A stretch of DNA of 11,001 bases from an uncultured Bdellovibrio sp. (GTDB lineage: Bacteria; Bdellovibrionota; Bdellovibrionia; Bdellovibrionales; Bdellovibrionaceae): NCBI RefSeq assembly GCF_946478835.1, contig NZ_CAMLDV010000120.1, positions 1 through 11,001 of the forward strand. Direction: 5' to 3'. This document shows, in pieces, positions 8,634-11,001 of the stretch. The translations under genes and the position numbers were made by a program. Below the pieces are notes generated by a model. The model was not told the DNA's origin, did no database searches, and was given only the letters and a program-made list of their open reading frames with translations. Positions within the stretch are counted from its first letter, which is position 1. Each line of letters begins with the position of its first letter.

Positions 8634-9284
8634 TTAGTTATATCCGTTTTTATAAGCTAAATCGTAGTCAGGGAAGAATACTCTTTTCCAGACGGGGATC
8701 TGCTCGATATTTTCCGGAGAAAGAACTTTTTTAAGTTCAAAATCGCCAACAGGATTTCTGCCGACTTGTTTACGAACTCTTAAGCGGAATAAGTACGGAG
8801 CTTCCGTTTCTTTATAATCATTCGAGAATACGCCACGTTTATTGTCGAAAGCTTCTTTCGCGGCTTTGCTGTATTTGCTCACGACACCTTTATCAAAAGG
8901 GTAGATGAAATAAATCATGCCCCAACCTTGACGAAGCATTTCCTCATTCAAATCTTTTCCGTCTTTAAGTAATCGACCTAAGATACGTCCATGTTTATCG
9001 ACATCACTGTCTTCAGAAAGAATAAGAACGGAACCCTCCGGTGCCATTGCTCTTAAAGCGTCACGAGCTTTTAAAGAAACATCACCTTGAGTGTTCTTAT
9101 AAAAATCAACTTCGGGAGTATCAACACCCATCAAACGCACTTTGTATCTTTCGTCATCGTCAACACCCACGGCTGTCAGCGTATCGCCATCGTGAACGCT
9201 CACAACCTTTAAACGAATGCCTTCGGCAAAAAGAGTGGCAGGGAAAAGAAGGATCAATAATAAAAGACTGCGTAGGTAATTCAT
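8634..9284 (-). CDS. Exported thermonuclease (staphylococcal nuclease-like domain)
   Basis: This 216-residue protein has an N-terminal signal peptide of about 20 residues (hydrophobic 6-15, likely cleavage after LFA), with no lipobox cysteine. An SNase-fold domain follows. The staphylococcal nuclease active-site set, aligned from memory, is complete. Asp34 in HDGDT, Asp55 in GVDTPE (55-58), and Glu58 belong to the calcium and base side, and Arg50 and Arg100 (DKHGR) are the two phosphate-binding arginines. The family cleaves DNA and RNA with Ca2+. A C-terminal tail of about 45 residues beyond the domain (RKQVGRNP onward) contains several aromatic residues. It is expected to act in the periplasm or outside the cell. 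The start at 9284 lacks a clear Shine-Dalgarno. The gene lies downstream of a hairpin terminator and may have its own weak promoter, which I could not identify. Confidence 0.92.
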   Translation of the reverse strand: MNYLRSLLLLILLFPATLFAEGIRLKVVSVHDGDTLTAVGVDDDERYKVRLMGVDTPEVDFYKNTQGDVSLKARDALRAMAPEGSVLILSEDSDVDKHGRILGRLLKDGKDLNEEMLRQGWGMIYFIYPFDKGVVSKYSKAAKEAFDNKRGVFSNDYKETEAPYLFRLRVRKQVGRNPVGDFELKKVLSPENIEQIPVWKRVFFPDYDLAYKNGYN

Positions 9285-9385: not shown

Positions 9386-9883
9386 TTATTTGCTGCCTTT
9401 GCTTTTCTTATTCAAAGGATTCTTCTGTGACTGCGGAAAACGAGCGCCAATTCCGTGATCTTTTAGATTATTGGTAACCTCTTTGCAGTCGGAATAACCG
9501 GTGCGGTTTCGCCAAGCAATCTGTGCAGAGGGAGGAACTCCAGGTTGAGTGGAAACATTTAAAGTGATGCGTTTACGAAGATGACGATTGAACGATTTTT
9601 CAAAGGGACTGCAAGCTTCCGGAATCGTTTTAAAAACGACTTCGGAAACTTTACCCGAAGAACTGTCTTGCACACTTTCAACCGCCATAGGGCAGGTGAC
9701 AGTGTCTGACGACGAAGTGATTTTAATTTCAGCATGATCCAAATCACTGACATTCACAAAACCAGAAAGATTTTGTTTTTCCAGCCATGCATCATTGAGT
9801 TTGCAAGAGTAAAGAGGCTCAGCGGCAGAGGCGGTATTAAGAATCCCCAAGAAAAGAAATGTACTGAGAGCGGTTTTCATCAT
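9386..9883 (-). CDS. Exported protein of unknown function, coupled to a PAD-like gene
   Basis: I do not recognise a family for this 165-residue protein. It has a clear signal peptide (about 1-20, cleavage likely in TASA-AEP). The mature part has four cysteines (27, 64, 91 and 133), an even number compatible with two disulfides in the periplasm. The middle is rich in beta-type and serine/threonine stretches, and the tail is strongly basic (KNPLNKKSKGSK). There is no lipobox. The start has an excellent Shine-Dalgarno, AAGGAGGT, 5 nt before ATG 9883; a second ATG follows at 9880. The Shine-Dalgarno lies inside the last codons of the upstream PAD-like gene and the frames overlap by 4 nt (ATGA), so the two are almost certainly co-transcribed and translationally coupled. 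A role as partner, inhibitor or substrate of the PAD-like protein is possible but unproven. Confidence 0.85.
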   Translation of the reverse strand: MMKTALSTFLFLGILNTASAAEPLYSCKLNDAWLEKQNLSGFVNVSDLDHAEIKITSSSDTVTCPMAVESVQDSSSGKVSEVVFKTIPEACSPFEKSFNRHLRKRITLNVSTQPGVPPSAQIAWRNRTGYSDCKEVTNNLKDHGIGARFPQSQKNPLNKKSKGSK

Positions 9884-11001
9884 TTCTTACCTCCTTGAGG
9901 ACGGCAGTAGCGAATGGCATGACTCGAACAATGCAAGTTGCCTTGTTGGACGTGAGCAAAATGAGTGTCGATGTAATCTGTTTTTAATCCGAGGCCTTTT
10001 ATCTGCTTGTCGATGTCAGCTTTAAAGGCGGGATTGACAGGATCGGGCATGATATAGGTATTTCCGACAATCTCACCATTTGTGGGATTCGGAAATAAGG
10101 AAAGTCCTGTGCCCATAGCATACGACGCGGGCTGTTTATCGTAGTCCATCATACCCTGATAGATGTCGGGAATATCGAGAGTCTTTGGAGAACATTGAGG
10201 GTATTTTTGTTTCAGTTTAGCTAAAAGATCTTTTTTGAATTGTTGAATGGCTTTTTCAACAGATTCATTGAAGTCTTTAAATTCTTTATCTGACTCAATG
10301 ATTTTCGCCAAATCCTTGTTCGTCATTTGAAGGCATTCTTTGGCTTCTTCCATTTTTGCGTTTGATTTCAAATAACCGGCTTTTTTCATTTGACGTTGTA
10401 TTTTATTGAGGATTTCATTTTTGCGAGTGACCAGGCGCTGTCTTTCTTCAGCTGATTTAGGTTCCATATCGTCAAGGGCCTGAAGTTCCTTGTAGAGACT
10501 TTCAACTCTTGGGTCCGTGATCGAAAGAACGCCGGCAAAAGATTTGGTGATCGACAGTTCCCAAAGCAATTGAGAAACGCCTTTTCCCGAGCGAGTTTTT
10601 CCTGGAGACGGCGGTAAATTTTGTGATCTTTTGCTGGCCGTGTAAGCCGCACAAATTTCACGATACCCTGATTGTCTCACACGAGTGAGAAGCTCTTCGC
10701 CTGAGACTCCGGGAAAATCGAAAACTTTTCCGTCGGGATTTCCTTTTAAAACTTCAAGACCTTTTTTAGGACTCGCAAACGCCAAGGCAAAATCGCAAGG
10801 CGGTTTTTGCGAAGGGTCTTTGAGAGTTTTAAACATCTCATCTGTATGACCCACCTTAAGAAAATCAGAAGGCGTTTTCACTGCGGCTTCCATATTTGTG
10901 CAAGTGGATTTAGCGTAAGAGTCCCACTCATTGTTGGTAAAATGATCAGCTACTAAAAGACAAAGTCCGTTGACGGCTTCAATTTTTCCAACGCTGTTAC
11001 C
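9880..11001 (-). CDS. Protein-arginine deiminase (PAD)-family protein, N-terminus outside the window
   Basis: The frame is open from TGA 9880 to the window edge without a stop, giving 373 visible residues; the ATG at 10893 (visible residue 37) is internal. I read it as the catalytic domain of the vertebrate-type PAD family, which converts peptidyl-arginine to citrulline, usually with Ca2+. Aligned from memory to human PADs, SDFLKVGHTDEM (45-56) matches the segment SDWLSVGHVDEF, placing the catalytic His at 52 and Asp at 54. FASPKKGLEVLK (75-86) matches the LLASP segment, and LDIPDIY (275-281) matches IIDIPQLF. GLGLKTDYID then leads to GNLHCSSH (354-361), matching GEVHCGTN, so Cys358 is the nucleophile. 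Glu8 may be a calcium ligand. The first catalytic Asp lies outside the window. A helical, lysine/glutamate-rich insertion (about 100-243) is much longer than in animal PADs. Export is likely from its coupled exported neighbour, but the signal peptide cannot be seen. Confidence 0.85.
   Translation of the reverse strand, partial: GNSVGKIEAVNGLCLLVADHFTNNEWDSYAKSTCTNMEAAVKTPSDFLKVGHTDEMFKTLKDPSQKPPCDFALAFASPKKGLEVLKGNPDGKVFDFPGVSGEELLTRVRQSGYREICAAYTASKRSQNLPPSPGKTRSGKGVSQLLWELSITKSFAGVLSITDPRVESLYKELQALDDMEPKSAEERQRLVTRKNEILNKIQRQMKKAGYLKSNAKMEEAKECLQMTNKDLAKIIESDKEFKDFNESVEKAIQQFKKDLLAKLKQKYPQCSPKTLDIPDIYQGMMDYDKQPASYAMGTGLSLFPNPTNGEIVGNTYIMPDPVNPAFKADIDKQIKGLGLKTDYIDTHFAHVQQGNLHCSSHAIRYCRPQGGKK
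9889..9896 (-). promoter_or_regulatory. Strong Shine-Dalgarno within the PAD-like gene
   Basis: The minus strand reads AAGGAGGT here, near-perfect complementarity to the 16S 3' end. It is formed by the last Gln-Gly-Gly codons of the upstream gene and lies 5 nt before ATG 9883, which supports coupled translation of the pair. Confidence 0.85.

Follow-up and report, generated by a model that had tools for sequence, protein, structure and literature searches.

An export-like peptidyl-arginine deiminase of Bdellovibrio and its overlapping partner gene, which may encode a periplasmic inhibitor

We analysed a window of 11,001 nucleotides (the whole stretch of DNA presented here, from contig NZ_CAMLDV010000120.1 of an uncultured Bdellovibrio sp.), in which an open minus-strand frame encodes a peptidyl-arginine deiminase (PAD) of which the C-terminal two thirds are present. 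PADs convert arginine residues of proteins to citrulline. The PAD gene overlaps the start of a small gene, hereafter the partner gene, and a nuclease gene follows (Table 1). Based on computational comparisons, we describe the family and fold of the enzyme, its kept catalytic residues, the export-like N-termini, the undetected PAD_M domain and the conserved gene pair. A preliminary description of this DNA had recognised the enzyme; its observation was confirmed and its interpretation partly supported, and it had missed the exported-looking partner encoded across the PAD stop.

Table 1. Features of the window, with positions counted from its first letter; residue numbers of the PAD are those of the relative P0001
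Feature	Position	Strand	Remarks
PAD gene, 3' part	9880..11001	-	last 373 codons and stop; 5' part off the window; residues 181-553 of P0001
VGKIEAV (GGNIEAV in P0001), glycine-asparagine-glutamate segment	10972..10992	-	altered at window edge
GHTDE motif with catalytic His and Asp	10837..10851	-	His232, Asp234 of P0001; H in 70/71, D in 70/71 relatives
Variable stretch	10309..10644 (approximate limits)	-	no counterpart in P0055/L097; in the model part low confidence, then helices
NLHC motif with catalytic Cys	9928..9939	-	Cys538 of P0001; C in 69/71 relatives, one exception being a contig-end cut
AGGAGG, likely ribosome-binding site of partner gene	9890..9895	-	inside PAD gene; function by consensus
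ATGA shared by the PAD stop and the partner start	9880..9883	-	second ATG directly after
Partner gene, 165-aa exported-looking protein	9386..9883	-	cysteines C27, C64, C91, C133; predicted eight-stranded beta fold
SNase-type nuclease gene	8634..9284	-	PF00565, 1.6e-14; signal-like N-terminus; 101 nt after partner

Membership of the window enzyme in the PAD family is well supported. As the preliminary description had expected from the order of motifs, the fragment matched the PAD catalytic-domain model PF03068 significantly (1.7e-14, 54 bits, curated cut-off 25). Its nearest protein, P0001 from Bdellovibrio sp. HCB-162 (553 aa, 98% identity), reached 51.7 bits with the same model; an NCBIfam search of P0001 gave no PAD match and two matches in all, both far under their cut-offs. 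Human PAD4 was the top sequence match among solved structures, at 1.8e-5 with the fragment and 2.5e-15 when a profile built from 38 relatives was used, and the predicted structure, aligned to human PAD4, has the fold of the PAD catalytic domain. The GHTDE and NLHC residues singled out earlier are the catalytic His, Asp and Cys, all inside the window; the partner Asp sought upstream, Asp126, was read in the full-length P0001, the window's own 5' part lying outside it. All four catalytic residues (Asp, His, Asp, Cys) are kept in 69 of 71 aligned relatives, the PAD fragment of L045 having been dropped from this alignment. The lipoprotein-like relative L077 (2893-4401, minus strand) has D, M, N and S at these positions and, by its sequence, is probably a dead enzyme. 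The family name itself is not new for the window enzyme, since the close relatives P0001, P0002 and P0005 are already entered as protein-arginine deiminase family protein; the predicted label 'hypothetical' holds for P0008 and fails for these three.

Neither PAD_N nor PAD_M was detected in P0001 by Pfam up to E 10, the same search that detected PAD_M (PF08527) in P0055, and on this result we rejected a PAD_M in disguise. Because the model aligns from its residue 37 onward with PAD4 from residue 296 onward, there is no room for both domains. As far as the searches tell, the window-group enzyme consists of an export signal and the catalytic domain, with neither extra domain. The earlier term 'vertebrate-type' was wrong, because the two domains were not found and the fold match is confined to the catalytic domain. 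The negative refers to P0001; PADs of the second clade described below (clade B), such as L061, have longer N-termini. Most calcium sites of animal PADs lie in PAD_M. Among putative calcium-site positions of the catalytic domain, equated by motif, Q125 is kept in 63 of the 71 relatives and E188 in 58, and position 129, likewise matched by motif to a PAD2 calcium residue, is E in 42 and Q in 16; E188 is also aligned with the GNLE Glu of P0055. We take Q350 and E354 of PAD2 to be calcium ligands, PDB titles showing only that both were mutated. Cummings and colleagues (PMC8826395) describe human PADI2 as absolutely dependent on binding up to six calcium ions. In their account animals and late-diverging cyanobacteria have a PADI of three domains, whereas fungi, actinobacteria and proteobacteria have one of two domains, its PAD_M being divergent.

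Export was called with a home-made hydrophobicity test, applied to the N-termini of enzyme and partner alike. By this crude measure an export-like N-terminus is present in 65 of the 70 PADs from the phylum when they are read from a fitted start and in 58 of 70 from the first start, compared with 49 of 101 and 29 of 101, respectively, among the other long frames of 16 loci (L001-L016) used as a control. An export-like signal, in line with the export that the preliminary description had considered, is present in the relatives by this test. C249 and C450 are present in all 71 PADs and other cysteines in most, a pattern that would fit an oxidising compartment.

The partner has a signal-like N-terminus in the same test, and its four cysteines are its only invariant residues (28 of 28 aligned relatives). 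The 16 loci were found by alignment of 24 relatives; a contig scan with the window fragment alone returned no relative. Among these loci identity to the window's partner falls as low as 9%. The partner evolves faster than the enzyme, its identity being the lower of the two in 350 of 351 pairs. The model consists mainly of strands, suggesting an eight-stranded beta protein; Foldseek with this model returned nothing at E 0.001 or better, and the barrel-like structural match is weak. Neither Pfam nor NCBIfam gave a family for the window's partner, and the one Pfam match among the 28 members, of a single member to the coat protein of a plant virus (0.0042), was taken as chance. Kinship of the divergent rows was assessed after removal of signal peptides, with a profile for each row trained only on rows less than 30% identical to it and searched against 6,727 frames. 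At E <0.01, 23 of 28 partner rows were recovered, the frame recovered for L021 being its near copy L024; L014 (0.021), L042 (0.04) and L050 (1.8) lay above this value, L015 had no match, and the fifth unrecovered row was the window's own partner, which is outside the searched set. We also considered the partner as a dedicated substrate of citrullination and set this aside because its arginine content is not kept: the mature L042 partner has no arginine.

The two genes are adjacent, co-oriented and kept together. In all 16 loci the distance from the PAD stop to the partner is between -4 and +4 nt, with a 4-nt overlap in 11. Across 368 genomes of the phylum, a PAD profile matched 77 and the Pfam model alone 61 (and none of 14 control genomes), while the partner profile matched 35. 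The partner was found at 36 places, 32 of them beside a PAD (30 directly downstream and two, in G252 and G311, directly upstream) and four in genomes without a PAD match (G104, G208 and, more weakly, G132 and G348). In this count a weak second match of G001 away from the PAD was excluded, two rows of G132 were merged, and the PAD of G105, a 51-codon remnant at a contig end, was taken as lying beside its partner. The partner genes of G104 and G208 are on short contigs, so a PAD may lie elsewhere in the incomplete assembly. PAD stretches were read for the 30 best matches of the 77 genomes and 40 more, then for G105 and G219, other weaker matches being left out. Particular arrangements among the stretches include the partner upstream of the PAD in L052 (2417-4641, plus strand) and L053 (2445-4455, plus strand); partner-like genes on a short contig or near a contig end of a genome without a PAD match in L091 (3947-4420, plus strand) and L092 (1083-1586, plus strand); the whole pair duplicated in tandem in G219 (L095, 1516-6401, minus strand); and five PAD matches on separate contigs of G065, four of which were read (L063, L064, L065 and L066) and have no adjoining partner.

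A quick tree of 68 PADs, from which L047 was left out for its contig end, L077 for its lost catalytic residues and L008 as nearly a copy of L007, separated a large clade A from clade B. A four-cysteine partner lies downstream of the PAD in 28 of the 39 clade-A rows, or 30 including the two upstream cases, with the row of P0001 scored by the window's own partner. In clade B (29 rows), six members of a group of seven have a small two-cysteine gene, and no other row has one. These six PADs (L058, L061, L068, L081, L083 and L088) are followed by A5, a small exported protein with two conserved cysteines, which may be distant kin of the four-cysteine partner (hhalign probability 85.6 for the six rows, over an aligned part that includes the signal peptide). 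A small partner of this sort is missing beside nine of the 39 PADs in clade A and 23 of the 29 in clade B. The partner label changes eight times on the tree, compared with 26.5 times on average after shuffling, and is therefore clustered; losses or further gains of the partner did occur. When plasmids were searched with a single clade-B PAD, the one match was distant and came from Streptomyces sp. NBC_01435.

The nuclease gene also follows the partner in L002 and L096 and lies about 2 kb further on in L001; it is possibly in the same transcript as the pair. In G155, a close relative of the window, the PAD is preceded at 18 nt by the end of a gene (L096, 7447-8919, minus strand) whose 490-aa product is proline-rich in its middle; genes like it lie ahead of the PAD in L001 and L002. 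The 490-aa protein has no NCBIfam family, and its L001 and L002 counterparts gave nothing over the Pfam cut-offs.

Taken together, the pair is best explained, although we hold this tentatively, as an exported enzyme for citrullination and its cognate inhibitor in the periplasm. A PAD-fold arginine deiminase made of a signal peptide and a catalytic domain would be exported and made together with its small partner, and to judge from fold and residues, it would use Asp126, His232, Asp234 and Cys538 to turn the arginine side chains of proteins into citrulline. Such an enzyme without PAD_M could endanger its maker. The four-cysteine beta protein would most likely bind it in the producer's periplasm and keep it inactive until it is outside the cell or acting in prey; a small exported protein, an overlapping gene and fast change are the expected look of an inhibitor or immunity protein. 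We infer citrullination, inhibition, targets outside the producer and a role in predation from these features. The full claim, that Bdellovibrionota predators citrullinate prey or envelope proteins outside the cytoplasm with an exported single-domain PAD and that the partner founds a new family of dedicated PAD inhibitors protecting the producer, is more doubtful than its core.

The main rival makes the partner a helper, either a periplasmic folding factor for a disulfide-rich enzyme or a regulatory subunit that replaces PAD_M in trans and is needed for activity. The undetected PAD_M, a separate beta protein always made in step wherever the pair exists, and conserved cysteines in enzyme and partner alike would all suit it; yet the many partnerless PADs of both clades nearly all keep their catalytic residues, and the partner's fast change suits an inhibitor at least as well. 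We consider a helper rather improbable. We think it unlikely, too, that the enzyme is a nutritional or digestive deiminase that uses arginine or peptides from prey or the environment and has no effector role. PAD-fold agmatine deiminase and arginine deiminase do act on small guanidines (PMC8826395), and a secreted-type nuclease gene adjoins the pair in the window, but the top family and fold matches are protein-arginine deiminases and not free-arginine enzymes. An equally unlikely reading has the enzyme modify the producer's own envelope or secreted proteins, with the partner tuning it. By eye, several relatives look membrane-anchored or lipoprotein-like and hence would stay on the producer, and none of the nine lipoprotein-like ones has a partner gene; the enzyme of the window group, however, has no membrane anchor.

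The copy in the window differs from P0001 at its edge. The last 65 nt (10937-11001) hold four residue changes, three at positions invariant or nearly so, and each of them corresponds to C>A or G>T relative to L096; an exact 35-base piece from this edge had no match in viral contigs. These changes, including VGKIEAV, are a probable sequence error. That the window holds a decaying gene that has lost an invariant segment would account for three such residues altered within 65 nt, but is very improbable for a frame open across 373 codons with only three other differences from P0001.

If the inhibitor reading is true, the pair would be the second kind of enzyme-immunity pair in predatory bacteria after Bd3459/Bd3460, and its partner a protein that naturally inhibits an enzyme of the PAD fold. 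Medicine takes an interest in PADs, and many of their solved structures are inhibitor-bound. A catalytic domain that is naturally exported and lacks PAD_M would reveal the behaviour of the fold without its calcium switch. Since the genes are small and the genus is one of bacterial predators, the claim is directly testable. Among the matches listed in a literature search (titles and abstract openings, with preprints and most subscription journals outside its scope), no publication dealt with a PAD-type enzyme or pair in Bdellovibrionota or predatory bacteria, nor with a periplasmic protein inhibitor of a PAD.

Several known systems resemble parts of this one. Porphyromonas gingivalis secretes its citrullinating enzyme, PPAD. 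Like the window enzyme it is bacterial and has a distant PAD_C-like domain, but it is an agmatine deiminase in extended form and phyletically distinct from PADI, and is set apart here by this description (PMC8826395). Animal PADI1-4 share about 20% identity with the window enzyme over the aligned part and match its fold only in the catalytic domain; unlike them, it looks exported, has several conserved cysteines and a co-encoded partner, and shows no PAD_N or PAD_M. Two-domain PADI (PMC8826395; here P0055 and the Streptomyces protein L097) have the same catalytic domain. Export is not unique to the window group, as P0055 and L097 also start with export-like segments by eye, but P0055 carries PAD_M and L097 about 260 extra N-terminal residues before the PAD domain, and the window group neither. 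As regards the gene pair, staphopain/staphostatin and the Bacteroides C10 proteases with their Bfi inhibitors likewise join a secreted cysteine enzyme to an adjoining small, poorly conserved gene for a lipocalin-like inhibitor, with Bfi 15 to 23% identical to staphostatins (PMC2873492). These enzymes are proteases with no demonstrated sequence relation to the PAD pair, and together with Bd3459/Bd3460 they serve as precedents, not as evidence. Bd3459 of B. bacteriovorus is a peptidoglycan endopeptidase and Bd3460 an ankyrin-repeat protein, both of unrelated families; ankyrin repeats were not found in the PAD partner, which has no Pfam family and a model mainly of strands. Although the relationship is proven there and inferred here, the layout is alike, an exported enzyme beside the gene of an exported protein: Bd3460 is co-transcribed with Bd3459, binds and blocks it, and its loss harms the predator (PMC4686830).
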